Assembly (NCBI GenBank): GCA_017453465.1
Contig: JAFTEV010000034.1
Coordinates: forward strand, 1 to 46,026
DNA length: 46,026 nucleotides
DNA from: Bacteroidaceae bacterium
Lineage (GTDB): Bacteria > Bacteroidota > Bacteroidia > Bacteroidales > Bacteroidaceae
Reading direction: 5' to 3'
The stretch's first letter is position 1, and every line of letters begins with the position of its first letter. The position numbers and the translations under genes are program-made. A model generated the notes under the pieces. That model was given only the letters and a program-made list of their open reading frames with translations, was not told the origin of the DNA and made no database searches. Shown here piece by piece: positions 19,079-46,026 of this stretch.

Positions 19079-19189
19079 TGGCTTGGAAAGTTGACGCAAC
19101 GGCGTTGTTTTTGAAAACAACGCCGTTGTTTCTATAAACAACGCTCATTGTTTTTATAAACAACGGCGTTGCGTCAACTTTGTAAGCCA
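19079..19189. repeat. nearly palindromic element, left copy
   Basis: The 95-nt core (19087-19181) begins AAAGTTGACGCAAC and ends GTTGCGTCAACTTT. The two 24-nt ends are complementary at 23 of 24 positions, and pairing continues outward with TGGCTT/AAGCCA. Inside are nested repeats of TTGTTT and AAACAA; the best inner hairpin is 15 bp with a two-base TG loop (19097-19111 with 19114-19128). A second copy lies at 45908-46002. Confidence 0.9.
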
Positions 19190-19199
19190 AAGTGGACGA

Positions 19200-19435
19200 T
19201 TTTGGTGTGGAAGTGTGATGGAAATGGATAGAAATGGGGGCGGGGTGGGAGAGGGATGGGCGGGAGTGATAAGAGGAACGGGAAGGGGGTGGGAGAGGGA
19301 TGGTGGCGGAGTGGGAGAGGGATGAGTGGGAGTGATGAGAGGAATGGGACGGGGATGGGAGGGTAGTGAGAATGGAAGGGAGTGGGTGAGAGTGCTGAGA
19401 AAGGATGGGAATGGGAGGGGAGTGGAGGCTTTTTT
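19200..19435 (+). repeat. G-rich imperfect tandem repeat, G-quadruplex potential
   Basis: The + strand is almost pure purine plus T with very little C. TGGGAGAGGGATG occurs at 19246, 19290 and 19312, intervals of 44 and 22, which suggests a 22-bp unit. Two segments, 19236-19260 and 19280-19299, have at least four G runs of three or more with loops of one to three bases, the canonical quadruplex pattern. Confidence 0.75.
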
Positions 19436-19490
19436 ATGTTGTTTTTACATTTTATGGGGGAGAATTGTTAGAAGTTCAAAAAAATATTCG

Positions 19491-19498
19491 TAAGTTTG
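19491..19498 (+). promoter_or_regulatory. promoter -7 element of the GH43 gene
   Basis: TAAGTTTG matches TAnnTTTG and lies 29 bp before the ATG at 19528. The nearest upstream TTG (19465-19467) is 23 nt away, slightly too far for an ideal -33 element, so the promoter is probable but not certain. The leader is short and AT-rich. Confidence 0.6.
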
Positions 19499-19527
19499 CA
19501 GCAAATTGATAACTAAACCTTAACAAT

Positions 19528-22467
19528 ATGACTGCAAAATTGACAATGAAATGGGCTGTGGCAGCTCTGGCGACGGCTGGGCTGCTTGGCGTTTCTGCCA
19601 CCGTGAAGGCTCAGGAAGAAATGACAGAGGTGACCACTGCGGAGTTGGCCTCTCTTTACAAGAGCACTTCGTTCAGGCAAATCAGTGTGCACGACCCCTC
19701 CGTGGTGTGGGACGATGCCACGGGCACTTTCTATATCTATGGTTCACACTACTTTGGTGCTCAGTCGAAAGACCTGCGCAACTGGACGGCCATTACCAAT
19801 TACTACAACACCACCTTCGACAAGGCTTTCAAGCAGAACCCCACGCACACCGTGAAACGCCGCTTGCCGGGCAGTTCCATGGTGGAGGAAGTGACGCTGG
19901 GCAGCTACGATGCTGCTGCATTCTGTGCCACCTACGCCGACGACGAGGCCGGCTGGGTGCAGGGTTGCCAGTGGGCACCCGACATCGTCTATAACCCCAC
20001 GATGAAGAAATGGTGCTACTACGTCAGTCTGAACGGCGACTACTGGGCTTCGGTCATTGTGCTGATGACCTCCGACTCGCCCACAGGCCCCTTCATCTAC
20101 CAGGCCCCCATCGTCTTCAGCGGCTTCGACGGCCAGACACGGTCGGGCAAGAGCGTGAACTACAAGAAGACAGACCTCGAAATCGTCTTGGGCACACAGT
20201 CCTCCCTGCCTTCGCGCTATCGCACTGACCGCTGGGGCACGTTCTACCCCAACAACATCGACCCCTGCGTCTTCTTCGACGAAGCGGGCGAAATGTGGAT
20301 GGCCTACGGCTCGTGGTCGGGCGGCATATTCATGCTGAAGCTCGACAAGGAGACAGGTCTGCGCGACTACACCTATACCTACACGGGCACGGGCACCTCG
20401 CCCGATGCCAACGCGCTGAGCGATGCCTACTTCGGCAAGAAGATAGCCGGCGGCTACTACGTCAGCGGCGAAGGCCCCTACATTCAGCACATTGGCCAGT
20501 ACTACTACCTCTTCATGAGCTACGGCGGCTTTGCCCCCGACGGCGGCTACGAAATGCGCGTGTTCCGCAGCACATCGCCCACAGGCCCCTACACCGATGC
20601 CAACGGCACTGCAGCCACCTACAGCCGTTACGCACTCAACTACGGACTGAATGCCACCGACAACCGGGGCATGAAGCTCATCGGCGCGATGAACCAGTGG
20701 GGCCTGATGACGGTGGGCGAGTGTGCACAGGGCCACAACTCTGCATGCACCGACAGCCAGGGCCGCTCGTTCCTCGTTTGTCACACTAAGTTCAACAACG
20801 GCACGGCGGGTCACTGCGTGCGCTCCTACCAGCTCTACACCAACGAGGACGGCTGGCTCGTCTGCGCCCCCTTCCAGTTTGCGGGCGAGACGGTGAACGA
20901 CGACTCCATTGCCGCCGGCTGCCCCTTCACGGCGGCAGACATAGCGGGCGACTATCATGTGCTCATACATCCCTACAAGCTGGACCACAACAACTTCCAG
21001 GAAGCTACGCCCAAGACCATCCACCTCTCGGAGGACGGCAAGGTGACGGGAGCGTACTCCGGCACATGGGCCGTGGCCGACGGCACAGCCTACTTCACCG
21101 TCAAGCTGGCCGGTGTCATCTACAAGGGTGTCATCACCGAGCAGACACTGGAGAACAACGCGGCCAAGACCGTAGCCTTCACAGCCGTCTGCTCGACCAA
21201 GGGCAATGCCAGCTGCGGCGTGCCCGTCTGGGGCTACAAGCTGGCTCCGAAGAGTGCCATTGCCTACAACTATCAGCAACATTCGGGGAGCGAGCTGAAA
21301 CTTTCTGCCCGCGTGACCAAGAACGTCAGCATCATGTTCGACCCCGTGGAGAACACCACCCTCACTTGGACTTCCTCTGAACCCGACGTGCTCTCCACCA
21401 CCGGCAAGTACAACCCCGACACCGTGGCAGTCAAGGTGAACATGACGGCCCGCCTGGAGAACTGCGGCTACTACTGGGAGAAGGCGTTCACCACGACCTG
21501 CGCCAAGGCCGCAGCCGTTTCGGGCGACCCCTACACGGGGCTTGTGGCCTACTACAACTTTGACGATGTGCCCACCCAGAACCTTTACGACGAAGACCAG
21601 CGGGCTACCTACGGACGCTCGAAGACCACGGGCACCATCCCCGTGCTGGAGACCGACTACGACCGCTTCGGCCAGGTGTGCCATCAGTACTATGGCGAAC
21701 AGGGTTCCAACAGCTTCACCCGTATGCCCAACCCGCTGGCTGGCACCGACAGCTTGCAGGGCTTCACCGTCAGTCTGTGGGTGAAGCGTGCCGACCTCAA
21801 CTACACGGGTGCCCTGTGGAGCTTCATCAACACCACCATTTCGGCCAGCAAGTCGGAGCGGCTCTTCCTCACGGGCAACAGCTACATCGGCTACAATGAC
21901 AACAACGGCAACTGGTTTGACGTGAACAACCCCGAAACCAAGAAGTTCACCTCCAACAACGGCATCACCGTGGGCGACTGGCACCTGGTCACCTTCACTT
22001 ACTCCCTGGAGAACGGCTACAAGTTCTACCTCGACGGTGTGGCCTACTCCGTGACCAACATGCAGTATCAAGGCAGCACCGACAAGGCGGCTGACTTCGA
22101 CCGCACGCTGGTCACCAACTTCGCCTCTACAGCCAAGTACTTCTACCTGGGCTTTGGTGCCTACGAGGGGTCTGCCGAGGCTCGCTTCGACGACCTGATG
22201 ATTTACAATCGCGAACTCTCTTCAGCCGACGTGCGCGGACTCAACACGCTGCTCAACCGTGTCAACGACTTCTCGCCCCGCAAGCAGCAGATGGGCGACC
22301 TCGACGGCGACGGCGTGATTACGGTCAACGACATTTCGCTCCTCATCGAGGCTTACCTTGCTGGCGGCGAAGGCTACGACCTCGCCCTCTGCGACATCGA
22401 TGGCGACGGACAAATTACCATTGAGGACATCACCCTGCTCATCGAAATCTATCTGGGTGGAGAATAG
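19528..22467 (+). CDS. secreted GH43 endo-arabinanase-like enzyme with LamG-like and dockerin-like domains
   Basis: Probably cuts alpha-1,5-L-arabinan outside the cytoplasm. A signal peptide covers about residues 1-28 (cut after VKA). Residues ~45-455 form a GH43 five-blade propeller: Asp56 in HDPS (base), Asp245 in NIDP (pKa modulator) and Glu315 in GEGPY (acid) are all present, as is His403 in GHNS, which in arabinanases lies near the bound ion. A beta-rich C-terminal arabinanase domain follows to ~580, then an Ig-like stretch, a LamG/concanavalin-like domain (~670-900) and, at 922-979, two EF-hand-like repeats (DLDGDGVITVNDI and DIDGDGQITIEDI) typical of dockerin type I. The gene has markedly more C at third positions than its neighbours. 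Family confident; arabinan as substrate is inferred from the subfamily look. Confidence 0.88.
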   Translation: MTAKLTMKWAVAALATAGLLGVSATVKAQEEMTEVTTAELASLYKSTSFRQISVHDPSVVWDDATGTFYIYGSHYFGAQSKDLRNWTAITNYYNTTFDKAFKQNPTHTVKRRLPGSSMVEEVTLGSYDAAAFCATYADDEAGWVQGCQWAPDIVYNPTMKKWCYYVSLNGDYWASVIVLMTSDSPTGPFIYQAPIVFSGFDGQTRSGKSVNYKKTDLEIVLGTQSSLPSRYRTDRWGTFYPNNIDPCVFFDEAGEMWMAYGSWSGGIFMLKLDKETGLRDYTYTYTGTGTSPDANALSDAYFGKKIAGGYYVSGEGPYIQHIGQYYYLFMSYGGFAPDGGYEMRVFRSTSPTGPYTDANGTAATYSRYALNYGLNATDNRGMKLIGAMNQWGLMTVGECAQGHNSACTDSQGRSFLVCHTKFNNGTAGHCVRSYQLYTNEDGWLVCAPFQFAGETVNDDSIAAGCPFTAADIAGDYHVLIHPYKLDHNNFQEATPKTIHLSEDGKVTGAYSGTWAVADGTAYFTVKLAGVIYKGVITEQTLENNAAKTVAFTAVCSTKGNASCGVPVWGYKLAPKSAIAYNYQQHSGSELKLSARVTKNVSIMFDPVENTTLTWTSSEPDVLSTTGKYNPDTVAVKVNMTARLENCGYYWEKAFTTTCAKAAAVSGDPYTGLVAYYNFDDVPTQNLYDEDQRATYGRSKTTGTIPVLETDYDRFGQVCHQYYGEQGSNSFTRMPNPLAGTDSLQGFTVSLWVKRADLNYTGALWSFINTTISASKSERLFLTGNSYIGYNDNNGNWFDVNNPETKKFTSNNGITVGDWHLVTFTYSLENGYKFYLDGVAYSVTNMQYQGSTDKAADFDRTLVTNFASTAKYFYLGFGAYEGSAEARFDDLMIYNRELSSADVRGLNTLLNRVNDFSPRKQQMGDLDGDGVITVNDISLLIEAYLAGGEGYDLALCDIDGDGQITIEDITLLIEIYLGGE

Positions 22468-22922: not shown

Positions 22923-22959
22923 CTTTAGTAAGCGTTAAAAAATAACTTGGGACATTTAA

Positions 22960-23698: not shown

Positions 23699-26600
23699 AT
23701 GAAACGAAAATTACTTTTGGCGGCACTGGTGGCCGCTGGTGCTGTCGGGTTTAAGACCCATGCACAAGAGGCTGGTACCTATTATTTCTACAATGAAGAG
23801 AGTGGAAAGTTCCTCAGTCGCGGAGCTACATGGGGTACACATGCTTCAGCAGATACTTATGGCATTGCATTTGAAATTACAAAGGTTAGTGATGGCGTTT
23901 ATACATTAAAGAATGTTGACCACTCTTTAATGGGTAATGCAAATAGGTATCTTGGTGATAATTTGTATACAGATAATGGTACAGCATGTAACTTTACTTT
24001 CACGGAAGCAGGTACAGGTAAATACACATTGTATAAAAATACAAATGAATACCTTACCATTGGTGCTTCAGATACTTATGGTCAAATTCCTGTAGAAACT
24101 ACAACTGATGCTAATAATGCAACTATATGGACATTGATGACCAAAGATGCATATAAAACAAAGCTTGCAGAACGTGATAATGCTGCAATTTCAACGCTCG
24201 CTGCATCAATGAATTTTGCAAATGTTACAGATTTGAACAGCTTAAAGTCCTATGTTTCTATTGCTAAAACCACAAATAAGACAAGTAGTATCGGGAATGC
24301 AGAAATTGGTGGTGGAAGTTCTGCTTGGACAAAATCTCAAACCGAAAATAAACGAAAAACAGGTGACGCTAAAGCTGGTGATGGTGTGTTCCAAGTATGG
24401 AATGGCTGTGCAGATGTGAATCAAACTGTTACAGGACTTTCAAAAGGCTTGTACAAAATAACCGTTGAAGCATTTCTTCGTTTTGGTGACAAGGAGGCAG
24501 CAAAACGTGTAACTACAAATGGTAGTATGACTTCTTATGTATATGGAAATGAAAGTAAGACACTTCTTCATAATTTTTGGGATATAAGGCAAGACAACGA
24601 CCATCCAAATTCAATGTCAGAAGCTTCTTCTCAGGTTATTGATAAAGATGATAGGGCTTTATTGGAATGCTATACTTCTGTTGGTGATGATGGCAATTTG
24701 AAATTGGGTATCTATTTGGCAGGTGGTTTTGATAATGTGTGGATGATTTGTGATAATTTCACCTTGACTTACATAGAGGACACTCCTACAGATGAATTAA
24801 CTGATAAAATCAAAAAGATATATGCCGAATACAAAGGCATATTAGGGGATCATTCTGTGGCTTCTGATATGACATCTGCATATAATAATTTTGTAGCCTC
24901 ATCAACACTTGCAAATTATTATACACTGCAAGAGGCTGTTACAGCAGCAAAGTCACCATCAGAACTTTGTAGAGAAATAACTAAAGCAACACAACTTGGT
25001 GTAGGAAGTGATGCTATTGATGCGGCTCAAGCAGTTCTCGATAATGGGTCTTCAACAGAAGATGATTATATTGTTGCCACTCAGAATTTGAAAATTGCAG
25101 AGTACAACTATGTTACTACAACCTATGAATATGGAGTTGACCTGGGTGCCTGGACGACTACAGGCCCGACAGGTTCACTTAGTGCACAGCATTATAAAGG
25201 TTCTGGTTATTCCTATCTAGAGCAATCTACTGCTGCTTGGAGCCAGAGCAGCTGGACCATCAAGTACACACAAGACCTTGCTTTGCCTGCTGGTAACTAT
25301 GTATTCAAAGTTGCCGGTCGTCAGGCAGACAGCGATGGTGTTACTTTGAGCCTTACGGTTAAGAACGGCGAAAGTGTATTGGGTACCGTCAGCGATTTCC
25401 CGAAAGGTGACACAGGCTTGGGTATCAACACAAGTGGTGAAACAGACTTTACGACTGGTGAAGGTCATGAATATGCCAACAACGATGCTGGTCGTGGCTG
25501 GGAATGGCGCTATGTTAAATTCACGCTTGTTGCAGATGCTACCGTGAATGTTGCCGTGGATGCTGTTGCTACGACAAATCATATGTGGGTAAGCTTCTGT
25601 GATGCTACTGTACAGACTGACAACGAAGCCAACATCTCACTCATTTCGTACAATGTGGCTCTGAACAACGCACAGACAGTACTTGCAGATGCTACATATA
25701 CAAACGTTGCAGGTACTGACAAGTCTAGCCTGGAGGCAGCTATTGCTGCTGATGGAACACTTGACAAGTCTAATGCAGAAGCCATCAATGCAGCAACAAC
25801 GGCATTGAACACTGCTGCCACGACATTCACTTCCGGTGTTGCTTCTTGGAACGCATACGTTCTGGCTAAGGGCTATGGTGAGGCTATCAACTCTACAGCC
25901 CTGCCATACGCTGTTGCTGCTAAGCTGACCGCTGTGACTACCGCTATTACTGCTACCGTCAACACTGCTGCTGAAGCCCTCGCTCAGGCTAATGCCATCA
26001 ACGCAGCCAACCGTGCTGCTTACGAAAGCAACGGCATTGCCGAAAACATCAGCGGTGCCAAGAACCGCACCTCGCTCATTACCAATGCCGACGGTTCTGC
26101 CTCAGCTGGCTGGGAAGGTTCTAGTAACTTCTGGACAGCATCTAACGAGGCTTACACTGAAGCTGATGGCAACACTACCAACACTTACTTCGACAAGAAC
26201 GGTGTGAAGAACTTCACAGCAAGCCAGACCATCAAGCTGCCGAAGGGCAACTACATCCTTTCTGTTACTGCACGTGCACAGGCCGGCATCAACTCCTACA
26301 AGATGCAGGTGACAAACAACGCCAGCGAGACGGCTGAAGTAGCCCTCACCGCTATGGGTAATGCAAACGGTGTGTTCAACCGTGGTTGGAACGACTTCAC
26401 TGTGGCTTTCGAGCAGAAAGCATACGGCGATGCAACTATTACCATCAGTGCAGAAAACAGTGCAAACTTCTGGATGTCTTGGGACCGTTTCCGCCTCTAT
26501 TGCATTGGTGAAGAAGGTGCTGTGGAAATTGCAGAAGATGCAGATTTCACTCCTGTTGACATGGAGGATGTTGATGTAACTCTGAATCGTACTATCAAGG

Positions 26601-27190
26601 CAAATGTTAATACACTTGTTCTGCCGTTCAATATGACACAGAGTGAAGTTGAAGAACAGTTTGGTGTCGGTTCTAAAGTTTATGTTGTAAAGAGCTATGA
26701 CGCAGACAGGGAAAATATTTCATTTGACGTTGCTGATGGAGTTACAGCCAATGTTCCTTGCTTGTTGCAGGCAACTCAAGCTGGTACAAGCTACGACCTT
26801 GAAACCCGCACAATTGTAGCTGGTGCACTAACATACGCTCCAGAAGAGGCTGGTGTTTCAATGACAGGTAATTATGCTGCTTCACAGACTGTGCCAGAAG
26901 GTGCCTATGTTGTTTCTAATGGCAAAATTTACGTAGTTGACAGTGAAGTGACCATTGCTGGTACTCGTGCATATATCAGTTTGACACAGCCTGAAACCCC
27001 TGAAACCCCTGCTAAGGCCCGTGTACTTACAATGTCATTTGAAGGTGATGATGCAACAGGCATTGCTGTTATTGAAAACGGTAACATCAACATCGAAAAG
27101 GGCACGATTTACAACCTGAATGGTCAGCGTGTAGCTAACCTGACAAAGGGTATCTACATTGTAAACGGCAAGAAGATTTTAGTTAAATAA
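23699..27190 (+). CDS. large secreted multi-module protein of unknown function with T9SS-like tail
   Basis: The 1163 residues begin with a signal peptide (about 1-22, ending THAQ). An N-terminal beta-rich stretch (~24-155) follows, then three similar galactose-binding-like modules at about 205-358, 480-640 and 785-935, each starting after a Trp/Gly-rich segment and separated by Ala-rich helical stretches like FIVAR repeats. A beta domain (~940-1090) and a PETPETPAK linker lead to the tail YNLNGQRVANLTKGIYIVNGKKILVK's family pattern, common in secreted Prevotella proteins and akin to type IX sorting domains. No catalytic motif is recognisable. It may bind glycans at the surface; that is inference. 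The first ~1.4 kb of the gene are AT-rich, the part encoding modules 2-3 clearly richer in GC. Confidence 0.85.
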   Translation: MKRKLLLAALVAAGAVGFKTHAQEAGTYYFYNEESGKFLSRGATWGTHASADTYGIAFEITKVSDGVYTLKNVDHSLMGNANRYLGDNLYTDNGTACNFTFTEAGTGKYTLYKNTNEYLTIGASDTYGQIPVETTTDANNATIWTLMTKDAYKTKLAERDNAAISTLAASMNFANVTDLNSLKSYVSIAKTTNKTSSIGNAEIGGGSSAWTKSQTENKRKTGDAKAGDGVFQVWNGCADVNQTVTGLSKGLYKITVEAFLRFGDKEAAKRVTTNGSMTSYVYGNESKTLLHNFWDIRQDNDHPNSMSEASSQVIDKDDRALLECYTSVGDDGNLKLGIYLAGGFDNVWMICDNFTLTYIEDTPTDELTDKIKKIYAEYKGILGDHSVASDMTSAYNNFVASSTLANYYTLQEAVTAAKSPSELCREITKATQLGVGSDAIDAAQAVLDNGSSTEDDYIVATQNLKIAEYNYVTTTYEYGVDLGAWTTTGPTGSLSAQHYKGSGYSYLEQSTAAWSQSSWTIKYTQDLALPAGNYVFKVAGRQADSDGVTLSLTVKNGESVLGTVSDFPKGDTGLGINTSGETDFTTGEGHEYANNDAGRGWEWRYVKFTLVADATVNVAVDAVATTNHMWVSFCDATVQTDNEANISLISYNVALNNAQTVLADATYTNVAGTDKSSLEAAIAADGTLDKSNAEAINAATTALNTAATTFTSGVASWNAYVLAKGYGEAINSTALPYAVAAKLTAVTTAITATVNTAAEALAQANAINAANRAAYESNGIAENISGAKNRTSLITNADGSASAGWEGSSNFWTASNEAYTEADGNTTNTYFDKNGVKNFTASQTIKLPKGNYILSVTARAQAGINSYKMQVTNNASETAEVALTAMGNANGVFNRGWNDFTVAFEQKAYGDATITISAENSANFWMSWDRFRLYCIGEEGAVEIAEDADFTPVDMEDVDVTLNRTIKANVNTLVLPFNMTQSEVEEQFGVGSKVYVVKSYDADRENISFDVADGVTANVPCLLQATQAGTSYDLETRTIVAGALTYAPEEAGVSMTGNYAASQTVPEGAYVVSNGKIYVVDSEVTIAGTRAYISLTQPETPETPAKARVLTMSFEGDDATGIAVIENGNINIEKGTIYNLNGQRVANLTKGIYIVNGKKILVK

Positions 27191-27908: not shown

Positions 27909-30890
27909 ATGTTTTACAACTTTCAGAGGAAAAAACTATGCAGTCACCTCTTAGCAGGAGGTGCCATGCTGGCTGCGGGTTTGGGAGTTCTCTCTTGTTC
28001 TGACAAGTATGATTTGGATTCGGACAGTAATCAGCCGTCGAATCTGAATGACATCTACGACTACTTGGTGGAAGAGGGCACTTACACGAACTATGTGCAG
28101 CTCATTCGGGATCTTGGAGAGGCAGAAGTGCTGTCCAAGACGGGTAGTAAGACCTTGTTTGTCGCAGACGATGATGCGTTTGCCAAGTTCTTTGCGTCGA
28201 ACAGCTGGAATGTGTCGAGTTATGACCAGCTGACGACGGCTCAGAAGAAGCTGTTGCTGTATTCGTCGATGATTGACAACCCGTATTCTACTTCCATGCT
28301 GGCCACGGCGGATGGTCCGGTGAAGGGTGAGGTGTTCCGCCGTGCGTCTTCGACCACCATCTACGACTCGGTGCTGGTGGTTCCGGCAAGCGACCCAGAG
28401 GGCATACTGCCTGACAATGACCGCTTCAATGAGTTGAAGGCTAACCATCCGAACATTGTGTTGTTTGACGAGGCTCGTCAGCCGGCTCCGATGCTTCACT
28501 TCACGTCGAAGTTCATGTCGGCCAACAAGGTGTTCACGACAGACATTGACTTCCTCTATAGCAAGTGGCTGGGCAAGGACAACCGTGCGGAGGAGGATGT
28601 GTATGTGAACAATGCGAAGATTCTGGAGGCCAACGTGTTCTGTAAGAATGGTTTCGTGCAGAAGGTTGACGAGGTGGTTGTGCCGCTCGACAACATGGCT
28701 GAGGCTTTGCGCAAGTGCTCGAAGACGCAGCTCTTCAGCAGCATTCTGGAGCGTTTTGCTGCTCCGGCTTATCAGCAGTCGCTGACGGAGGCTTACAACC
28801 AGAACAAGGGCACGGAGTATGACTCTGTGTTTATCAAGCGTTATTTCTCTAAGCGTTCATACGGTTCGGGCTTGGGCGACAAGGATGTGGCTTTCGACAC
28901 GGACAAGAATGGTAATCCATTTAATGGTCAGCTGAAGTTCGACCCGGGATGGAACGGCTATTATCCTGACATCACTCCGAAGGGCAGTGACCCGATGATG
29001 GAGGAGATGGGCGTGATGCTGGTTCCGACGGATGCTGCGCTGGAAGCGTGGTGGAACGGCGAGGGTGGCGATGACATCCGCAAGTTCTATGCCCAGTCGG
29101 GTGACGACACGAAGACGGGTCTGCGGAAGACTCCTACCTCGGTGCTTGACGAACTGATCAATGCCGGACAATATGCTTCGTTCTGCCAGACGATTCCGTC
29201 GAACTTCTCGAATGTGCTTGATGGTGCGCAGATGGAGCTTGGCATCACGGAGAATGACATTGACAGCGTCATCATGTGTTGTAACGGTGCCATCTACCTG
29301 ACGAATAAGGTGTTTGCGCCAGTGGCTTATTCTTCTGTGCTCAGTCCGTCGGTGATTGACACGATGAGCTACAACACGATTTCAAATGCCATTGAAAACA
29401 TGGAGTATGGTGCATACCTGAATTCTATGGTGTCGCGCTATACGTTCCTGTTGCCGACCAGCGCGGCCCTGTTGAACTACGTAGACCCAGTTTCCTATGG
29501 TCTGGCTCAGCCACAGATGTGGGCTTTGAGGTATGATGCCTCGAAGACTCAGACAAGGTGCATTGTTGTAGATGTGTATAACTGTACCATTGATGAGAAC
29601 GGTGTGCCGACTCCAGTGGGCGATAAGCTGAGGACGATTGAGGAGACATTGTCGAGTTCTTTGGACGGTAGTCTGAAGGACCGCATGGAGGACATTCTGG
29701 ATAACCTGATTATCACGCAGGACTATACCGCAGGCAAGCAGTATTACAAGACGAAGGGCAACACGTTTGTACGCATCGTGCCTTCTGGTACAGACTACCA
29801 CGTGTTTGGTTCATGGCAGCAGCAGTATGAGAATCCTATCGTGGTTGACAAGGATTCTATCTATACGAAGCGGAACGGTTCTACCTTTGTGGTTGACCGT
29901 GTGCCCATGGGTGCTTCGAAGTCGGTGGCTCAGACACTGGCCGACCATCCAGAGTTCTCTGATTTCCTCTGGGTGCTGCAGAACAGTGGTGCGCTGAGTA
30001 CGACCAACGCTAAGGATGGTTGGCAGGCTGGCGACCAGAAGATTGGTAACCTGTTCAACGTGAAGGACGGTGGCTCTATCGGTGCGGAGGATACGGACTC
30101 TAAGTCGAGGAAGGCTACTTATTTGCTCAACAACTTCCACTATACGGTTTATGCTCCCACCAATGATGCCATGAAGTTGGCGTTTGCCGCTGGTCTGCCT
30201 GACTCTACGGCTTTGCGCTTGGCTGAGGAGTATGACCAGAGTGTGGCTGAAGACGTGGATGCTGCTGCTGACTCTGCTGCAAAGGTGCAGGAGGTGCTGC
30301 TTGACTTCGTGAAGTATCACATTCAGGACAACTCCATCTTCATGGACCAGGGCTTTGAGTCGAACAGCTACGAGTCGGGCAAGACGGAGCTGACTCCTTC
30401 GACCAACATCGTGGAGGCTGGTGCAGAGACTACCATTGCGGTTGTTGACAACACGCACATCAGGGTGATGACTACCAGCAATCCTGATGGCACTGTCTAT
30501 GAAACTCCCGACCAGACGGCGAACTCTAACGTGCTGACAAAGTCGGCAGATGGCACTATCACGGCTGCTCAGTACTACACGGGCAAGTATTCTCCGGGTC
30601 GTCCATATAAGTTGAACGTGAATGTTTCGGCCAGCAGCATGACTGTGACTGACGTTGAGGGCAACACGCGCAATGTGAGCACAGTGGAGGGTCTGCACAA
30701 CTTGATGGCACGTGAATACTGGTATAAGTCTTCGTCCAGTGTTACTCCGGCCAATGCTTATAACACGAAGCTGGACAACTCTTCGTTTGTTGTCATCCAG
30801 GGCATTGACGGTCCGCTCTTCTTTGATACTCCAAGTCAGTTTAAATATACACGTAAGCAACTTACTACAGAAGCAAAACGTCGTCGCTAA
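27909..30890 (+). CDS. fasciclin (FAS1)-repeat lipoprotein, first gene of the operon
   Basis: The 993-residue protein has a lipoprotein signal with Cys30 (GVLSC) followed by SDKYDLDSD, acidic like Bacteroidetes surface-export signals. FAS1 core motifs recur at about residues 82 (TLFVADDDAFAKFF), 370 (MLVPTDAALEAWW), 513 (FLLPTSAALLNYV) and 746 (TVYAPTNDAMKLAF), so at least four divergent FAS1 units are likely. FAS1 is an adhesion or ligand-binding fold. Proteins of this kind occur beside SusCD pairs, where they probably sit on the cell surface; their ligands are mostly unknown. The C-terminus is basic (TEAKRRR). The SusC gene follows after 12 nt. Confidence 0.87.
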   Translation: MFYNFQRKKLCSHLLAGGAMLAAGLGVLSCSDKYDLDSDSNQPSNLNDIYDYLVEEGTYTNYVQLIRDLGEAEVLSKTGSKTLFVADDDAFAKFFASNSWNVSSYDQLTTAQKKLLLYSSMIDNPYSTSMLATADGPVKGEVFRRASSTTIYDSVLVVPASDPEGILPDNDRFNELKANHPNIVLFDEARQPAPMLHFTSKFMSANKVFTTDIDFLYSKWLGKDNRAEEDVYVNNAKILEANVFCKNGFVQKVDEVVVPLDNMAEALRKCSKTQLFSSILERFAAPAYQQSLTEAYNQNKGTEYDSVFIKRYFSKRSYGSGLGDKDVAFDTDKNGNPFNGQLKFDPGWNGYYPDITPKGSDPMMEEMGVMLVPTDAALEAWWNGEGGDDIRKFYAQSGDDTKTGLRKTPTSVLDELINAGQYASFCQTIPSNFSNVLDGAQMELGITENDIDSVIMCCNGAIYLTNKVFAPVAYSSVLSPSVIDTMSYNTISNAIENMEYGAYLNSMVSRYTFLLPTSAALLNYVDPVSYGLAQPQMWALRYDASKTQTRCIVVDVYNCTIDENGVPTPVGDKLRTIEETLSSSLDGSLKDRMEDILDNLIITQDYTAGKQYYKTKGNTFVRIVPSGTDYHVFGSWQQQYENPIVVDKDSIYTKRNGSTFVVDRVPMGASKSVAQTLADHPEFSDFLWVLQNSGALSTTNAKDGWQAGDQKIGNLFNVKDGGSIGAEDTDSKSRKATYLLNNFHYTVYAPTNDAMKLAFAAGLPDSTALRLAEEYDQSVAEDVDAAADSAAKVQEVLLDFVKYHIQDNSIFMDQGFESNSYESGKTELTPSTNIVEAGAETTIAVVDNTHIRVMTTSNPDGTVYETPDQTANSNVLTKSADGTITAAQYYTGKYSPGRPYKLNVNVSASSMTVTDVEGNTRNVSTVEGLHNLMAREYWYKSSSSVTPANAYNTKLDNSSFVVIQGIDGPLFFDTPSQFKYTRKQLTTEAKRRR

Positions 30891-30902
30891 TAAATCATTA
30901 TC

Positions 30903-34358: not shown

Positions 34359-34376
34359 TAGCATAAGAAAACCGTT

Positions 34377-36266
34377 ATGAAGAATATCAAGAATAAAATA
34401 AAATATGTGGCAGCGGCAGCTGTCGTGGGTGCAACGGTTTCGGGCTGTTCTCTCGACTTGCTTCCGCTCAACGAGGTCGTGCTCGAAAACTATTGGACCG
34501 ACAAGGCCGATGTGGAGAGCGTGGTAAATTCCTGCTATGTGGCCATGCAAGAAGGCGGCTACATCACGAACCTCATTGTATGGGGAGAAAATCGCTCCGA
34601 AAACACAACGCCCAACTCTTCGGCTCCGAATGATTTGCGCTACCTGATGAAGGGCAATCTGAAGACGACCAATGGTTATTGCAACTGGGCTGCGTTCTAC
34701 AATGTCATCAACCGTTGTAACACTGTGCTCTACTATGCAGAACAGGTGGCACAGAAAGACCCTAACTACACAGAGTCGGACTTCCACATCACGCAGGCCG
34801 AAGTGAAGTTCCTCCGTGCTTATTCCTACTTCACGCTGATTAAGACCTTCAAGGATGTGCCTTTCTCGCTTGAGCCGTCAATCGACGATGACGTGGACTA
34901 CAGCTTGGCCCGCACGCCGTTTGAGACCATTATCAATGCGCTGATTGACGACCTTGAGGGATGCAAGAACTATCCTCCCATCAGGTATTCAACAGCTCTT
35001 TACAATTCGGCTCGCGTCACTCGTGATGCCATGTACGCACTCTTGGCAGAACTGTACCTGTGGCGAGCTTCTGACTCCGGGGCAGAACTGTCGGCCAAAC
35101 AGAATGATTACCGTTCTTGCATTGCCTGCTGCGACTATGTGATTAACCATAAGATTAATCTTTTCAGGGAAAACAATTTCCTGAATGCCAACAATCAGTC
35201 TGTGGATTTGACAAAGGTCTATGACACGTATGTCTATTCCAACTACGGCATTCCATTGCTGAAGGAAGAGGCTGGCACAGGTGTTTCCACTGGCCCTCAG
35301 GGTTACAACTCCATTTTTGGCACAGGCAATTCGTTTGAGTCCATCTTTGAAATCTCTTACACGACGGGTACAGACGACAAGAAGAACACCGATGTTTCTG
35401 TCATGTATGGTGGATATGCCGACAAGGACAAGACGAGTGCAGACAGAATGGTGCTTGCTAACGAGAACCTGATTAACACAGAGCCTGCAGCTACGGCCTA
35501 CAACAACGATGCTCTCTTTGTGGTTCCTTCTGACTACCGTTCCATCGAGAATTTCCACTACACAGGTGGCGGTGGCTCACAGGAAATCTATAAATATGTA
35601 GTGGAGCGCAATCAGGCAGGTAGCAGCTCGTCCTCAATCAATCTGGGTACTGTTGGCACGAAGTTCACAGCTCCTGACACGAAAACAGCCCAGAGTGTTC
35701 GTCGCTGGTCTAATCAGTATGAAAGCTGGATTCTCTACCGCATATCAGAGGTTATCCTGATGCGTGCAGAGGCCGAGATTGAACTGGCTGGCACGATGGA
35801 TAAGGCTGCTACAGCCACAGCAAACTTCACTGGCTATCATGAGGGTGCAAGCCTTGGTTCGGCAGCAGAGCTTTATGCTGATGCCTTCAACTTGATTTGC
35901 GCTGTTTATATGCGTTCAAACCCTGTTGTGAAAGGCAATGCCGGTCACAATTACATGCCAAAGAACGCCAATTACAAATTTGAAGATTACGAGAAACTGC
36001 TGATGTTGGAGCGTCGTCGTGAGTTCCTCTTCGAGGGCAAGCGCTACTACGACCTTGTTCGTCAGGCACGCCGCGAGGGTACCACTGCTAAACTTCAGGA
36101 AGCCATCACTTCCAAGTTTGGCGAAGCTCTGAAATCAATCCTCATCAAGATGTCGAATCTTAACTTTATGTATATGCCAATCCTCAAAAGCCAGATTAAG
36201 GTGAACCCCAAACTCACCCAGAATCCTTGCTACTATGATGAGGAAGAATCTGTAAAACAATACTGA
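34377..36266 (+). CDS. SusD/RagB-like surface lipoprotein, first pair
   Basis: It forms the lid on the SusC before it and binds substrate at the surface. The 629-residue protein has a lipobox with Cys24 (VSGC), the PLNEVVLENYWTDKADVE start typical of SusD, TPR-like helices including AEVKFLRAYSYFTLIKTFKDVPF and ARVTRDAMYALLAELYLWR, and the terminal LLMLERRREFLFEGKRYYDLVR. The spacing is 18 nt to SusC and 3 nt to the next gene, so it is part of the same operon. Confidence 0.94.
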   Translation: MKNIKNKIKYVAAAAVVGATVSGCSLDLLPLNEVVLENYWTDKADVESVVNSCYVAMQEGGYITNLIVWGENRSENTTPNSSAPNDLRYLMKGNLKTTNGYCNWAAFYNVINRCNTVLYYAEQVAQKDPNYTESDFHITQAEVKFLRAYSYFTLIKTFKDVPFSLEPSIDDDVDYSLARTPFETIINALIDDLEGCKNYPPIRYSTALYNSARVTRDAMYALLAELYLWRASDSGAELSAKQNDYRSCIACCDYVINHKINLFRENNFLNANNQSVDLTKVYDTYVYSNYGIPLLKEEAGTGVSTGPQGYNSIFGTGNSFESIFEISYTTGTDDKKNTDVSVMYGGYADKDKTSADRMVLANENLINTEPAATAYNNDALFVVPSDYRSIENFHYTGGGGSQEIYKYVVERNQAGSSSSSINLGTVGTKFTAPDTKTAQSVRRWSNQYESWILYRISEVILMRAEAEIELAGTMDKAATATANFTGYHEGASLGSAAELYADAFNLICAVYMRSNPVVKGNAGHNYMPKNANYKFEDYEKLLMLERRREFLFEGKRYYDLVRQARREGTTAKLQEAITSKFGEALKSILIKMSNLNFMYMPILKSQIKVNPKLTQNPCYYDEEESVKQY

Positions 36267-36269
36267 TTT

Positions 36270-38342
36270 ATGAAAATACTGAATTTTAAGTCTCTGGCTG
36301 TTGCTTTGATTGCAATGACAGCCGTTCAGTTCAGCCTCGTAAGCTGTTCTGATGACCCAGGCGTGGAGAACTATTACACCAGTACTTCAGAATATGCTAC
36401 TGACTATTTGCAAGGAAACGACCAGTACAGCATGTATGTGCAGATTTTGCAGCGTGCCACTGGTGCAAAAGGCAATCTGCGCCTCGTAGAGCTTCTTGCA
36501 TCTTATGGTTCTTACACTGTTTTTGCGCCGACCAACGACGCTGTGAAAATGTTCCTTGCCAGCAAGGGCGTGTCTTCTGTGGATGAACTCCCGAAGGAAG
36601 ACTGCGACACGGTGGCTCTGAACTCCATCATCGAAACCGCATACTTCACGACAGACGTGAGCGACGGTACATATCCCCAGTCGAACATGTTGGACCAGTA
36701 CCTGACCATCCGCAGCGACAGCGACTTGGTGTCCAATCCGGGTCAAGTCACACTGGCCATGTATGTCAACGATGCCCGTCTGATTCAGACCGACGACTCT
36801 GTGTCAAACGGTGTGGTTCATACCGTGGACAGGGTAGTGCTCACCAGCACACAGATGATTTCTGAGTTTATTGACGAAGACGAAAACTGCTCACTCTATG
36901 CACAGGCTCTGAAAGCTACAGGAGTAGATAAGCTCATGCTGGAGTATGAAGACGAAACCTACTCGGTAGGTAGTGACTCCATCGACTGGACAAACGATGC
37001 ACTTGTTTTGCCAACAGCTTCCGAGTCGGATAACGTGGCCTACATGGAGCACCGTTATTACAAGTACACATTCTTCATTTGTCCCGACTCTGTGCTGGAG
37101 GAAAAGTACGGCATCACTACGCTGGACGACCTTCGTGCAAAAGCACACGAACTCTACGACCCCGTTTATCCTGAGGATGCCAACATTACAGACGAAACCG
37201 ACCGCCGCAATGCGCTCAACCGCTTCATTTCTTACCACATCCTCGACCGTTACGGTTCTTACTACACGCTGACTGCCGTTGACGGACAAAACTCTACGCT
37301 GGCCATCAACTGGAACCGCCGTAAGTGGGACATCGCAGACTGGTATGAAACCATGATGCCGCACTCCATCCTGAAGTGCTCTTTCCCATCAGGAACTCAG
37401 GCCGGTCTTTACATCAACCGCCGTGGTGTGCAGTCACGTGCCGATGAGCGCGGTGTGTTTGTTCGTGGTGCCAAGGTCACTCCTACATCCGACATGAACA
37501 AGGTGAATACCTGTCTCAATGGTATCTACCACTACATCGACGACATCATTGCATACGACGAGAACACACAGAACGTGGTGCTCAACGAGCGTCTGCGCAT
37601 AGATGCCTCTACACTCTCGCCTGACTTCATGACCAGTGAGGCCCGTGGCCACTACACACGTTCAAATTACGAGAACGGTAAGTATGGTATCTGGGACAAC
37701 ACAACCAACCACAACAACAAGCAAACTTGTCTCGGCTTCAAGGCTGGCTATGCCAAGAACTTTGAATATACCAACAACACCCACCTGCATGTGCGTCCAC
37801 GTACACTTTCGTTCTGGTCCTATCAGGGTGACGAGGTGACCATCCTTGGTATCTTCGACTTCAAGGTGAAGATTCCTCCTGTTCCGGCAGGCACCTATGA
37901 GCTTCGTCTGTTCACTTGCGTTGATTTCTCCAACCGTGGTATCATTCAGGTTTACATTGACGATATTCCACAGGGCATCCCATTCGATATGCGCCCAGGC
38001 GGAACAGTCCTGTTCGGATGGCAGTCTGATACATCGCTGGGTGACGAAGATGCTATTGCTTCCTTCGACAAGTCTATCCACAACCTGGGCTGGATGAAGG
38101 GACCAAAATCCTACTATTCTGCAAGCACCGAATCTGGTGGCACACAGGGAACTTGTTTCCGCGATGCACCCAATACGATTCGTAAGGTGCTGGGGCACTT
38201 CACCACAGATGGCAAGACCGACCACTACTTACGTTTCCAGCAGAAGCTTGAATCGACGAAGAATGCTATGAACTTCGACTTCCTCGAAGTATGTCCAAGC
38301 TCGGTTTACAACAACGAGTACTACGCAGAGGATAGATGGTAA
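36270..38342 (+). CDS. fasciclin (FAS1) lipoprotein, second
   Basis: The 690-residue protein has a lipobox with Cys26 (LVSC) and an acidic SDDPG after it. A first FAS1 unit shows YTVFAPTNDAVKMFL (about 82) and NGVVHTVDRVVL (about 181); a second shows TFFICPDSVLEEKYG (about 262) and NGIYHYIDDIIAYD (about 417). The last about 250 residues form a beta-rich domain with GTYELRLFTCVDFSNRGIIQVYIDD, which looks like a jelly-roll, perhaps sugar-binding. Only 3 nt separate it from SusD. Probably surface-exposed and part of the ligand-binding assembly, by inference. Confidence 0.87.
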   Translation: MKILNFKSLAVALIAMTAVQFSLVSCSDDPGVENYYTSTSEYATDYLQGNDQYSMYVQILQRATGAKGNLRLVELLASYGSYTVFAPTNDAVKMFLASKGVSSVDELPKEDCDTVALNSIIETAYFTTDVSDGTYPQSNMLDQYLTIRSDSDLVSNPGQVTLAMYVNDARLIQTDDSVSNGVVHTVDRVVLTSTQMISEFIDEDENCSLYAQALKATGVDKLMLEYEDETYSVGSDSIDWTNDALVLPTASESDNVAYMEHRYYKYTFFICPDSVLEEKYGITTLDDLRAKAHELYDPVYPEDANITDETDRRNALNRFISYHILDRYGSYYTLTAVDGQNSTLAINWNRRKWDIADWYETMMPHSILKCSFPSGTQAGLYINRRGVQSRADERGVFVRGAKVTPTSDMNKVNTCLNGIYHYIDDIIAYDENTQNVVLNERLRIDASTLSPDFMTSEARGHYTRSNYENGKYGIWDNTTNHNNKQTCLGFKAGYAKNFEYTNNTHLHVRPRTLSFWSYQGDEVTILGIFDFKVKIPPVPAGTYELRLFTCVDFSNRGIIQVYIDDIPQGIPFDMRPGGTVLFGWQSDTSLGDEDAIASFDKSIHNLGWMKGPKSYYSASTESGGTQGTCFRDAPNTIRKVLGHFTTDGKTDHYLRFQQKLESTKNAMNFDFLEVCPSSVYNNEYYAEDRW

Positions 38343-38362
38343 AACTATTAAAATAAAGAACT

Positions 38363-40267
38363 ATGAACAATCATATAAAAAACACATTCCGCACAGGAGT
38401 ACTTGCAGCAGCAGGTCTTGTAGCAATGTATTCTTGTTCTGATACGTGGGATGACCATTACAATGGCACTGCCTCTTCCGCCTCTGTTTTCGACGGAACC
38501 ACGATGCAGGCCATTGAGCAGCAGGCACCCGACTTTGCTGCTGTTCTCAAGGCTGCTGGCTTTGACCGCGAACTGGCTTCGTCCAACACGTACACTGTAT
38601 GGTGTCCTGCCAATGGCACATTCAACAAAGACAGCTTGATTGCTGTGGCTCAGTCAGACTCGGCTGCTGTTGTGAAGCGATTCATCCAGAACCATGTGGC
38701 CCGCTACAATGTTTCGCTGGGTCTTGAACCCCAAGAGGTGACACTCCTCAACACCAAGTTGCTGACCATGTCGGACAAGCAGACACACAAGATTGGCAAT
38801 GTCAATATCTCTGAGACAAGGAACAACATCAAGTGCAACAATGGTATTCTCCACTTCATTGATGGGCAGATTCCTTTCCAGAACAACATCTTTGAACTGA
38901 TAGAGCAGGAGTACCTGCGTTCAACCAATCCCACCAAGGCCGACAGTTCACTCTATGCCTTCTTGCAGGTGTTCAATGAGGACTCACTGCTCGAAAACAA
39001 GTCGGTAAGCCGAGGCGTGGATGAGAACGGCGAAAAGATTTGGGTCGATTCAGTGACACTGCGCAACAACACTGTCCTGAAGAATGTCGATGCACTTGTT
39101 TACGATGAAGACTCAAGCTACATCGCACTCATTCCTTCCGTTGAAGCTTTCCAGAAGCGTTATTCTGAGGCAAAGTCTCTGCTCAAGTTCAATCCTCACA
39201 TGGACGAGGGTCTGGAGTACAAGAAGACCGACTCTCTGCAGAACTACTACGCCAACATGTTCTCAATGAACGACCTCTTCTTCAACCGCAATGCCAACGA
39301 GCACTGGGAAGACTCACTCAAATCCACCATCTATTCTCCAATGGACTGGCCTTACGGTCTTTACTACCGCAAGGCGGACAATGTGCACCACGGCCTTCCA
39401 GAGGACAGGGGTGTGAACGACATCCTTGCCACTGTCGGAGTGGCCGATTCCATCACTTGCTCCAATGGTATTGCTTATCTGATAGACGAATACCCCATGT
39501 CTATCTATGAGCAGTATTTCAAGAAACTGAAGATTAGAGCCAGCTCGTTCACCTTGGACGATGCATCCCGTTCAGGCAATCCTCAGACGGGTGGCCTTCT
39601 GACCAAGAACATCGGTTCCGTCAGCTCTATGTCAGGCACATGGACCGTGGCCTACTGGAAGGAAATCAATCCGAAGCTTGATGTCAATGGCGACACCATC
39701 GGATATGATACGATTTGGGCAGGTGACTCACACGTCCAGACATATTACTATATGGACGTTCCGCCATCATCTAACACGGTGAACCCCAACATCGCATTCA
39801 AGATTTCTGGCAACCTTTCTGGCAAATACGACCTTTACATCGTAACGACTCCGCTCTGGTTCAAGCCCGGAAACTCCTTGACAACAGAGCCGCGTGCCTA
39901 TCGTTTCAATGCCAACATCTACGAAATGGGTACAGACGGCAACTACCCCAACAAGGGTACAGCATTGCTGAATCCTGCCGATAACAGCAAAGTATTTACC
40001 ACGCCGACCCCGACAAGCATTGCAGCCATCACAGACACCACTTATCTTGGTGCGTATGAGTTTAAGTACGCCTACTACGCACAAGACGAGCCAGGCGTGA
40101 TACTCCAGCTTGTTACTGCCATTTCTTCAAGTCAAACAAAGTCATTCTCTCGCGAAATGCTGATTACAGGTTTCATCCTCAAGCCACACGACGACTCTGC
40201 ACTTGAAGAATCCCGGGCCAAGAGACGTGACGATGATTCTATTATTAACACCACTAAAAAATACTAA
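38363..40267 (+). CDS. fasciclin (FAS1) lipoprotein, third
   Basis: The 634-residue protein has a lipobox with Cys25 (MYSC) followed by SDTWDD. FAS1 motifs are YTVWCPANGTFNKDSL (about 77) with NGILHFIDGQI (about 160), and YIALIPSVEAFQKRY (about 253) with NGIAYLIDEYPM (about 368). A beta-rich C-terminal domain (about 385-610) follows, then a charged tail with RAKRRDDDS. The tail recalls the AKRRR end of the first FAS1 protein. The next SusC begins 2 nt after the stop, so the operon continues. Confidence 0.87.
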   Translation: MNNHIKNTFRTGVLAAAGLVAMYSCSDTWDDHYNGTASSASVFDGTTMQAIEQQAPDFAAVLKAAGFDRELASSNTYTVWCPANGTFNKDSLIAVAQSDSAAVVKRFIQNHVARYNVSLGLEPQEVTLLNTKLLTMSDKQTHKIGNVNISETRNNIKCNNGILHFIDGQIPFQNNIFELIEQEYLRSTNPTKADSSLYAFLQVFNEDSLLENKSVSRGVDENGEKIWVDSVTLRNNTVLKNVDALVYDEDSSYIALIPSVEAFQKRYSEAKSLLKFNPHMDEGLEYKKTDSLQNYYANMFSMNDLFFNRNANEHWEDSLKSTIYSPMDWPYGLYYRKADNVHHGLPEDRGVNDILATVGVADSITCSNGIAYLIDEYPMSIYEQYFKKLKIRASSFTLDDASRSGNPQTGGLLTKNIGSVSSMSGTWTVAYWKEINPKLDVNGDTIGYDTIWAGDSHVQTYYYMDVPPSSNTVNPNIAFKISGNLSGKYDLYIVTTPLWFKPGNSLTTEPRAYRFNANIYEMGTDGNYPNKGTALLNPADNSKVFTTPTPTSIAAITDTTYLGAYEFKYAYYAQDEPGVILQLVTAISSSQTKSFSREMLITGFILKPHDDSALEESRAKRRDDDSIINTTKKY

Positions 40268-43554: not shown

Positions 43555-43569
43555 AAACACGTAAAACTC

Positions 43570-45684: not shown

Positions 45685-45740
45685 CCTCCCCACGATTCTA
45701 AACCACTTTAGCTGCTAACGCAGCACACCCCATTCGAAGT

Positions 45741-45786
45741 CCAAGCACCTTAAAGGTTCGCCCTTTAACTGCTTGGGCTTCTTTTT
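45741..45786 (+). terminator. intrinsic terminator of the FAS1/SusCD operon
   Basis: CCAAGCA (45741-45747) with an inner TTAAAGG pairs with CCCTTTAA and TGCTTGG (45770-45776) around a TTCG tetraloop; a small internal mismatch remains. CTTCTTTTTG follows. A strong stem with a T run in the right place after the last susD. Confidence 0.82.
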
Positions 45787-45787
45787 G

Positions 45788-45905
45788 TCTGCCCTCTCCA
45801 TCCCCTCCCGCAGTTCTCTCCGCCCCCTCCCATCCCCTCCCGTTCCCACCCCCAAATCCCGCCCAAACCGCCCCCACTTCCCTCCCGACTTTCTCCCGCT
45901 CCAGA
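45788..45905 (-). repeat. C-rich tract (G-rich on the minus strand)
   Basis: Runs of three to five C recur throughout. On the minus strand the segment reads GGGAGGGGATGGGAGGG in one part, which closely resembles GGGACGGGGATGGGAGGG in the left tract near 19345-19365. It faces inward, next to the right palindrome, as the left tract does, but on the opposite strand. Confidence 0.7.
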
Positions 45906-45907
45906 CA

Positions 45908-46002
45908 AAAGTTCACTCATCGGCGTTGTTTTCAAAAACAACGCCGATGTTTCCAGAAACAACGAACGTTGTTTCTACAAACAACGCCGTTGCGTCAACT
46001 TT
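45908..46002. repeat. nearly palindromic element, right copy
   Basis: It is 95 nt long, exactly like the left copy, and aligns with it without gaps at 81 of 95 positions by hand count. The right end (45979-46002) is the exact complement of the left end of the left copy (19087-19110). The inner hairpin is 15 bp with a CA loop (45918-45932 with 45935-45949); its third base pair is T-A where the left copy has A-T, a compensatory change. Confidence 0.9.
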
Positions 46003-46026
46003 CCTTGCAAGACAGGGAAGAAACCC

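Follow-up and report, generated by a model that had tools for sequence, protein, structure and literature searches.

Two near-palindromic arrays in the window

The window analysed here, a stretch of 46,026 bp that makes up a whole contig, belongs to a Bacteroidaceae genome (G000) whose assembly is 85% complete and comprises 108 contigs. It carries two 95-bp near-palindromes, one on each side of a block of accessory genes resembling a polysaccharide-utilisation locus (Table 1). The left copy lies between rplQ and a GH43 gene, the first gene of the block, and only 24 bp of contig follow the core of the right copy, whose outer arm is thus cut off. The two cores, equal in length as the preliminary description had stated, are real and align without gaps at 81/95 positions (85%). 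The reported 15-bp hairpin with a two-base loop was also recovered in both copies (19097-19128 and 45918-45949), its third pair reading A-T in one copy and T-A in the other. Folded as single-stranded RNA, both copies were far more stable than dinucleotide shuffles (z -11.1 and -6.4), with 0/200 shuffles as good.

Table 1. Coordinates of the two element copies and their parts in the window.
Feature	Position	Strand	Remarks
Left core	19087..19181	.	95-bp near-palindrome with four palindromic units; from genome match and alignment
Left core, unit 1	19094..19110	.	Alignment columns 8-24; outer half altered to GACGCAACG
Left core, unit 2	19115..19131	.	AAACAACGCCGTTGTTT; alignment columns 29-45; pattern match 19116-19130
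Left core, unit 3	19136..19153	.	18 bp, 1 base longer than that of G004; alignment columns 50-67
Left core, unit 4	19158..19174	.	Alignment columns 72-88
Left copy, left arm	18982..19086	.	Degenerate, ~105 bp; boundary approximate, from conservation fade at ~110 bp and size of the copied unit
Left copy, right arm	19182..19286	.	G-rich tract begins here; boundary approximate, from arm profiles and size of the copied unit
Stretch that G001, G067 and G028 lack between rplQ and GH43	18953..19435	.	Ends set by eye; includes the G-rich tract
Right core	45908..46002	.	95 bp; subfamily AAAGTTCACTCATC common to L016, L020 and L023
Right core, unit 1	45915..45931	.	Alignment columns 8-24
Right core, unit 2	45936..45952	.	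Alignment columns 29-45
Right core, unit 3	45957..45974	.	Alignment columns 50-67
Right core, unit 4	45979..45995	.	Alignment columns 72-88
Right copy, left arm	45800..45907	.	C-rich; ~105 bp in common with L020; boundary approximate
Right copy, start of right arm	46003..46026	.	Arm cut off by the contig end

The arrangement of the pair proved less meaningful than it had appeared. A G-rich tract does follow the left core, with a G skew of +0.85 over 160 bp; since the other side of this copy is also G-rich (+0.43) and the right outer arm is cut off, the impression that the tracts face each other does not describe a property of the pair. Similarly, the two copies flank the whole accessory block only because one of them happens to lie at a contig end, and their pairing is accidental.

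A dispersed intergenic family

As the preliminary description had suggested, the arrays belong to a dispersed repeat family, with 38 places in G000, of which 36 are complete, each measuring exactly 95 bp. One of the remaining two is cut by a contig end, and the other is a two-unit copy, shorter by exactly two units. Three places are exact duplicates on other contigs (L034/L035, L017/L018 and L043/L021), leaving about 35 independent loci. For nine of the 38 copies the nearest contig end is no more than 550 bp away, compared to ~1.4 expected for 108 contigs, so the repeats seem to break this assembly. No copy falls inside a gene (0/38) according to a simple, purpose-made gene caller that misses some genes. 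Nine of the 27 copies with both neighbours called lie between divergent genes, or 8 of 25 loci once duplicate contigs are removed, which leaves little support for the earlier suggestion of a 3' transcript stabiliser. No plasmid, phage or viral-contig matches to the element were found.

Array geometry is kept in three genomes while the sequence changes

The core consists of four 17-bp palindromes, each with A/T-rich ends and a CGNCG centre, set at a pitch of 21 bp (two helix turns) and bordered on the outside by arms of ~105 bp made of degenerate 22-bp repeats. All complete G000 copies contain one extra base, giving steps of 21-21-22. In G004, from the same genus, the palindrome is a related one and complete copies number at least 16; of the 17 examined, 16 have four units with steps of 21-21-21, and the 17th has two units. 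In a further genus-mate, G015, at least 19 copies are built on a quite different palindrome, TATTCTCGNCGAGAATA, with four units and steps of 21-21-21 in 19/19 copies examined, and arrays of this type were present in 1 of 45 genomes. The pitch is therefore rigid, being exactly 21 bp in all 35 complete copies of G004 and G015. Mean pairwise core identity was 91.5% in G000 (n=29), 81.6% in G004 (n=16) and 77.2% in G015 (n=19), corresponding to 8.1, 17.3 and 21.4 substitutions per pair, with core lengths equal within each genome. Copies in G004 and G015 thus differ on average at 17-21 of 94 positions, yet the 21-bp pitch is held. Spacing that persists while the letters drift or give way to others points to a phased platform and a putative dimeric binder.

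Under strict filters, with 93 candidates scored per genome, the sequence model had no matches in 37 of the 45 genomes of the genus. A single match in G025 (E 0.006) may be due to chance, and a lone 41-bp match of 85% in G046, from another family, was disregarded as probably fortuitous. A G027 type shows, by eye, three sites at 22 bp; with this type and the extra base of the G000 copies, the 21-bp pitch does not hold without exception.

Some places share one neighbouring gene between genomes at 67-96% identity, four between G000 and G004 and two between G000 and G015; both neighbours match only at the thiD-response regulator place (G015), one of them at 42%. As the chance expectation is only a rough guess (~1), these shared positions carry no weight. 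In pairwise alignments of the G000-G004 places with a shared neighbour, the far flank and the arms gave no clear alignment. L010-L051 (69%) would be a fifth such pair for G000 and G004, but possibly a paralogous one.

Arms, periodicity and curvature

Dyad-symmetric conservation of arm positions reaches ~110 bp to either side of the core in G000 and G004, in profiles that omit duplicate, partial or short-flanked copies (L013, L016, L018, L020, L021, L022, L023 and L035, as well as the right copy of the window, whose flank is short). At positions d 41-43 and 52 the letter is nearly always A or T, either being allowed. Along most of the arm length the base class (A/T or G/C) is about as informative as the letter itself, which does no more than suggest indirect readout. 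In the A/T profile at 25-112 bp there is a period of 11 bp, which 0/500 row shifts reached in either G000 or G004; a period of 23-25 bp is equally strong, and further A/T peaks lie at offsets of 5 bp (d 20, 25 and 30, and in G000 additionally 64-65, 69 and 74). One arm is 44 bp (2 x 22) shorter in one of two related copies. Matching of arm to arm within a copy over 120 bp showed no excess among 31 G000 and 16 G004 copies, L028 being the exception.

Predicted curvature over the core and 105 bp on each side exceeded that of dinucleotide shuffles in G000 (z 3.14, n=29) and G004 (z 3.99, n=16), whereas control stretches taken from G000 gave z 0.67 (n=69) and z 0.22 (n=72). In G015 the elements showed no unusual curvature (z 0.75, n=19), and bending is thus not a feature that the three genomes share.

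Empty sites and the question of mobility

Around the left copy the gene order is conserved: G001, G067 and G028 keep rplQ and GH43 adjacent without the element. A second empty site is the gap between thiD and a response regulator in G004 and G028. Comparison of L026 with relatives gave no clean empty site, and at the sites that lie downstream of the ABC-F gene and upstream of dxs the next genes of the relatives differ and so give no information. Three pairs of related copies share ~75-118 bp to the left and ~100-155 bp to the right of the core, which indicates that a unit of ~0.3 kb was copied. These observations suit a MITE-like, non-autonomous element, in which the arrays would be recognition sites for a trans-acting transposase or recombinase and their spacing would be needed only for mobility. 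The element also has the size (50-1000 bp), the many copies and the lack of coding capacity of such elements, and G015 has its own family. However, conservation is central and fades outward, the reverse of what terminal inverted repeats would produce, and by eye neither sharp ends nor target-site duplications were seen at the two empty sites and in the three copied pairs. Only 2/38 places are incomplete, and no transposase match at 1e-8 was obtained for 30 proteins encoded in the flanks of 17 of the 38 loci. Overall, we consider a mobile origin of this kind rather unlikely, even though it is the strongest of the alternatives.

REP/BIME repeats are linked with RAYT (Y1) transposases. The genome-wide search for a cognate transposon, confined to the Y1 transposase family PF01797, gave 0 matches in G000, which is no proof of absence since this genome is only 85% complete; matches above the cut-off were found in G004 and G015. 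Like the short palindromic extragenic repeats described as REP/BIME (PMC3733652), the present elements occur in many copies, but they are ~95-bp arrays of four phased units with arms instead of single palindromes of 20-40 bp. BrickBuilt, a MITE of Porphyromonas gingivalis with 19 copies, always intergenic (PMC4596501), resembles them as a dispersed intergenic element with tandem units of ~22-23 nt. As that paper describes it, BrickBuilt consists of direct 23-nt repeats between a leader and a tail, with short TIRs AAGACCTTTGCA / CCGAAAGGTCTC (Table 2, PMC4596501) and no four-palindrome core mentioned; compared by eye with the printed TIRs, our elements have neither the direct-repeat minisatellite nor these ends. 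The results listed in literature searches named no family of this kind.

Gyrase wrapping and RNA structure

The phased, dyad-symmetric A/T-G/C pattern could also mark strong gyrase sites, that is, gyrase-wrapped DNA of the kind seen at E. coli BIME-2 or the Mu SGS. The motif that Topo-Seq gave for E. coli gyrase is described as degenerate, symmetric and 130 bp long, with a 10.75-bp GC period read as wrapping (PMC6379681), and in the present elements the 11-bp arm period likewise extends to 112 bp in two genomes. Nevertheless, a footprint of ~300 bp is more than twice the length of that motif (PMC6379681), the 5-bp offsets and the equally strong 23-25-bp period speak against it, and the core is a specific palindrome array at 21 bp whose palindrome is completely different in G015. 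We therefore regard gyrase sites as an improbable explanation.

A structured RNA, acting as transcript end, stabiliser or terminator, would account for the very stable single-strand folds of the window copies, and the preliminary description had concluded from the A-T/T-A swap that structure rather than sequence was being kept. Inside the core this is unsupported. The swap is common to the right copy and to L016, L020 and L023, and as these also share its left arm it may represent one event. Once copies were oriented, none of the core pairing models showed excess complementarity in G004 (p 0.17-1.0), an apparent u1:u2 excess in unoriented copies (p 0.004) having disappeared (p 0.98). The same was found in G015 (two-hairpin p 0.69, long hairpin p 0.998) except for u1:u3 (p 0.015), the single weak case among eight models. 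Some pairings were even rarer than chance (G004 u2:u3, p_low 0.0007; G015 long hairpin, p_low 0.002), and no RNA-type covariation was seen inside the core of oriented copies. Further out the picture differs somewhat: symmetry at columns 7, 9 and 10, in the outer stem of the core, is kept by changes on both sides in 13-17 of 44 rows, and covariation is present in the arms of G004 over their first 10 bp (p 0.0003), both of which a hairpin would also explain. Covariation scores of the mixed 44-row alignment exceeded those of shuffles (reached by 1/500 for the two-hairpin and 0/500 for the long-hairpin model), scores that related rows and the mixture of two species can inflate. No Rfam family reached its gathering score anywhere in the window; sub-threshold matches in a 601-bp stretch round the left copy, the best with E 2.9e-9 and 47.6 bits (cut-off 105), were to miRNA and sRNA models and are regarded as palindrome artefacts. 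With 8 of 25 distinct loci between divergent genes as a further argument against it, an RNA function is very unlikely.

The idea that the two near-palindromes are recombination substrates bounding an exchangeable island, to which the position of one copy on each side of the block had given rise, is almost certainly wrong: on the left side it is already refuted, as that copy lies inside synteny that three relatives keep element-free, with GH43 following rplQ also in G015 (~6 kb between them), while the right copy lies next to a contig end and 38 places exist in G000. Repeats at the contig ends of draft genomes can mimic island boundaries, and caution is needed in such cases.

Discussion

Taking these results together, we lean towards the reading that the element is a dyad-symmetric intergenic platform of ~0.3 kb for a putative dimeric DNA-binding protein, with its spacing under selection. 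Four 17-bp sites at a 21-bp pitch could place four protein dimers on one helix face, and the arms would extend the array outward with degenerate 22-bp sites. A candidate sequence-specific dimeric protein may occupy the array cooperatively, its specificity having presumably shifted between species with the geometry unchanged, and the resulting nucleoprotein complex would most likely serve chromosome architecture or bending, not a gene product. No partner protein was found.

Noc sites are dispersed architectural dimer sites on the chromosome. Similar to these and to the dispersed architectural sites matS/MatP (PMC3330122), the present family comprises tens of short, putative dimer sites throughout a chromosome, but in place of single short sites it has four at an exact two-turn pitch, with long arms. 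Tentatively, the arrays might form a class of dispersed centromere-like sites in gut Bacteroidales, in which geometry is conserved and the recognised sequence is replaced species by species along with a fast-evolving DNA-binding protein. Whole genomes would then switch site specificity, leaving the architecture of 17 + 4 bp, two turns and 22-bp arms unchanged.

If true, this would mean that selection preserves how a DNA platform is arranged on the helix even though its sequence drifts and, between species of one genus, is exchanged altogether, and that specificity turnover of a chromosome-wide binding protein would be directly testable in bacteria. The element would then also be a ready bait with which to isolate the candidate protein of these Bacteroidales, whether architectural or a transposase.

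A dispersed family with a phased four-palindrome core

The paired near-palindromes that the preliminary description had reported at the two ends of the block are present as claimed: their 95-nt cores align without gaps at 81 of 95 positions (85% in a genome search), and both contain the 15-bp hairpin with a two-base loop. Of the suggestion that they belong to a dispersed, REP/MITE-like family, the dispersal was borne out by the genome search, which placed the element at 38 distinct places in the window's own genome (G000). A search with a sequence model built on 44 copies gave 76 matches over the two strands, corresponding to the same 38 places; since scoring covered 93 of the 1175 candidates from the first look, very weak copies could be missed. 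The 38 places comprise 36 full-length copies, each spanning exactly 95 bp, one copy truncated where its contig stops and one copy of two units. At three places a stretch of 3.1-6.1 kb is repeated exactly on another contig (C106/C81, loci L034/L035; C92/C12, L017/L018; C105/C82, L043/L021; one pair inverted), such identical stretches being redundancy or near-identical strains in a draft assembly with 6% contamination. At nine of the 38 places a contig stops no more than 550 bp away, versus about 1.4 expected from 216 ends, and repeats of this kind seem to break the G000 assembly.

The core is formed by four palindromic units with the consensus AAACAWCGSCGWTGTTT. In a second genome, G004, the 17-bp units follow one another at steps of 21, 21 and 21 bp in 16 of 17 copies examined, the other being a two-unit copy; the G000 steps are 21, 21 and 22 bp, the last because the third unit has one extra base. 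In the G000 copy L014, the middle part of the core reads in the opposite direction. The two arms outside the core carry degenerate 22-bp units (e.g. GGTGTGAAGTGAGGGAAATTTT in locus L009). In 29 G000 and 16 G004 copies, arm conservation is symmetric between left and right and tails off about 110 bp out. Some arm positions keep A/T with the two letters mixed, such as position 42 (25 A and 33 T in 58 arms), but taken over whole arms, the letter is about as informative as the A/T-G/C class. The A/T profile at 25-112 bp has an 11-bp period in G000 and G004, matched by none of 500 row shifts, and a 23-25-bp period of about equal strength; beyond 112 bp, a weak 21-22-bp signal was detected in G000 only. 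Predicted curvature of the core ±105 bp, calculated by a wedge model, was strong in G000 (z 3.14) and G004 (z 3.99) and not in a third genome, G015 (z 0.75), with z 0.67 and 0.22 for control stretches of G000.

Coordinates of the window features and of the G015-type loci
Feature	Position or loci	Description	Remark
Left core	19087-19181	95-bp near-palindrome	
Right core	45908-46002	95-bp near-palindrome	24 bp from contig end
Insertion holding the left copy	18953-19435	roughly 480 bp, includes G-rich tract	ends by eye
1163-aa protein	23699-27190		no Pfam match at 1e-5
Fasciclin-domain and SusC/SusD-type genes	27909-40267	three large fasciclin-domain proteins alternating with SusC/SusD-type genes	
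G015-type loci	L205, L217, L226-L243	TATTCTCGNCGAGAATA, four units at 21 bp, 19 places	

Different letters in related genomes

The 15-mer AACAWCGSCGWTGTT was found in 7 of 45 same-genus genomes (reversed control, 0-1 hits per genome), and the sequence model matched 8 of the 45, one of them by a single weak match (E 0.006 in G025). A two-site pattern retrieved 45 stretches from a collection with one genome per species. All come from MAGs that bear Bacteroidaceae, Prevotellaceae or Bacteroidales in the title, and where a title names a host, it is sheep, yak or water buffalo; none was found in viral contigs. Several of these stretches (G027 type) have, by eye, three sites at 22-bp pitch with a half-site in the middle. 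In G012 (L062:2000-2100), units of 22-23 bp, ACGCCGTTGTTTCAAGCTTTCC, form a direct tandem array that is maybe intermediate between direct-repeat and palindromic forms. Near the L026 element, a stretch of about 50 bp (L026:2867-2916) is another dispersed repeat, recurring in G004 and, right where several contigs begin, in G015.

No copy of the G000-type motif was found in G015 by 15-mer or sequence-model search. A different array stands in this genome both upstream of the GH43 gene and between thiD and the response regulator; a homology search with it, scoring 19 of 30 first-look candidates, gave 25 matches, counted as 19 distinct places; the same search found none in the other 44 same-genus genomes. 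All 19 copies have four 17-bp units at steps of 21, 21 and 21 bp, separated by four-base linkers, with half-sites around CGNCG (e.g. TATTCTCG, ATATGGCG, ATATATCG and TATTATCG), and their arm consensus, ACAGTGAAGCGTG-GAA-ATTTT, resembles the G000 arm unit as judged by eye.

DNA platform, mobile element or RNA fold

In favour of a DNA platform, mean core differences per copy pair were 8.1 in G000 (29 copies), 17.3 in G004 (16) and 21.4 in G015 (19), and despite these substitutions complete copies within each genome keep equal length and pitch. Relics of a dead mobile element that had diverged to this degree would be expected to show indels as well. Changes in number come as whole units, as in the two-unit core and in one arm shorter by 44 bp.

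The main rival is a mobile element maintained through a recombinase of its own. In three pairs of related copies, the shared sequence extends roughly 75-118 bp to the left and 100-155 bp to the right of the core, so that a unit of about 0.3 kb has been copied to new places, as this rival would have it; against it, no sharp ends or target duplications were noticed in the copied pairs and empty sites, and no Y1 transposase was found in G000. Thirty proteins from the flanks of 17 loci were diverse, without a transposase match at 1e-8 among them.

The preliminary description had also proposed that structure rather than sequence is kept, with 3' transcript stabilisation as one reading; inside the core this found little support. 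Both window cores fold as single strands far more stably than dinucleotide shuffles (z -11.1 and -6.4), outer core positions change jointly on the two sides, and in a mixed alignment both hairpin models had covariation scores above shuffles, though relatedness among the rows can inflate this control. Against the proposal, complementarity under the core pairing models was not in excess in the oriented copies of G004 (p 0.17 to 1.0), nor in G015 save for one of eight models (p 0.015), and some core pairings fall below chance frequency (u2:u3, the second and third units, in G004, p_low 0.0007). Covariation in the G004 arms over their first ten positions (p 0.0003), like the joint outer changes, could stem from symmetric half-sites as well as from the base of a hairpin. 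Among the 27 of 38 G000 copies with both neighbours called, by a simple gene caller that misses genes, none lies inside a gene, and the arrangement is tandem in 14, divergent in 9 and convergent in 4 (13, 8 and 4 without duplicate contigs). The RNA reading is little supported.

The block between the two copies

That the two copies bound an exchangeable island is refuted on the left: in G001, G067 and G028, too, the GH43 gene comes directly after rplQ, about 100 bp separating stop from promoter and no element lying there, so the left copy is part of an insertion in conserved synteny. The pair was accordingly rejected as island ends, the right copy lying at the end of contig C6 (46026 bp), all of which is the window. 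A second clear empty site is that between thiD and the response regulator, with the element in G000 (L043) and none in G004 and G028. In G015, an insertion of about 6 kb separates rplQ from the GH43 gene (L208/L205, C68:1569-7245) and adjoins a G015-type array.

Encoded in the block are a dockerin-bearing GH43 enzyme, two SusC-like TonB receptors, one SusD-family protein and three fasciclin-domain proteins, the interleaving of the last with SusC/SusD-type genes looking unusual for such a locus; a 704-aa protein, like the 1163-aa one, had no Pfam match at 1e-5.

Comparison with known systems

Systems with which the element can be compared include MatP/matS, Noc and RAYT. BrickBuilt of P. gingivalis (PMC4596501, PMC5771137) is likewise intergenic with 23-nt units, but differs in having direct repeats between a leader and a tail and defined terminal repeats. 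The E. coli gyrase motif is described as symmetric, degenerate and 130 bp long with a 10.75-bp GC period (PMC6379681), and a preprint gives a 10-11-bp periodic GC preference for gyrases of other species too (PMC12324340). The arms of the element are partly like the gyrase motif, whereas its specific core is unlike it. A literature search of narrow scope, a thin basis for calling the family undescribed, named no paper on this family. The protein that would bind the element and the purpose it would serve are inferred; the element itself is read as a DNA platform of four phased palindromes, dispersed in the genome and with letters that vary among species within a single genus.
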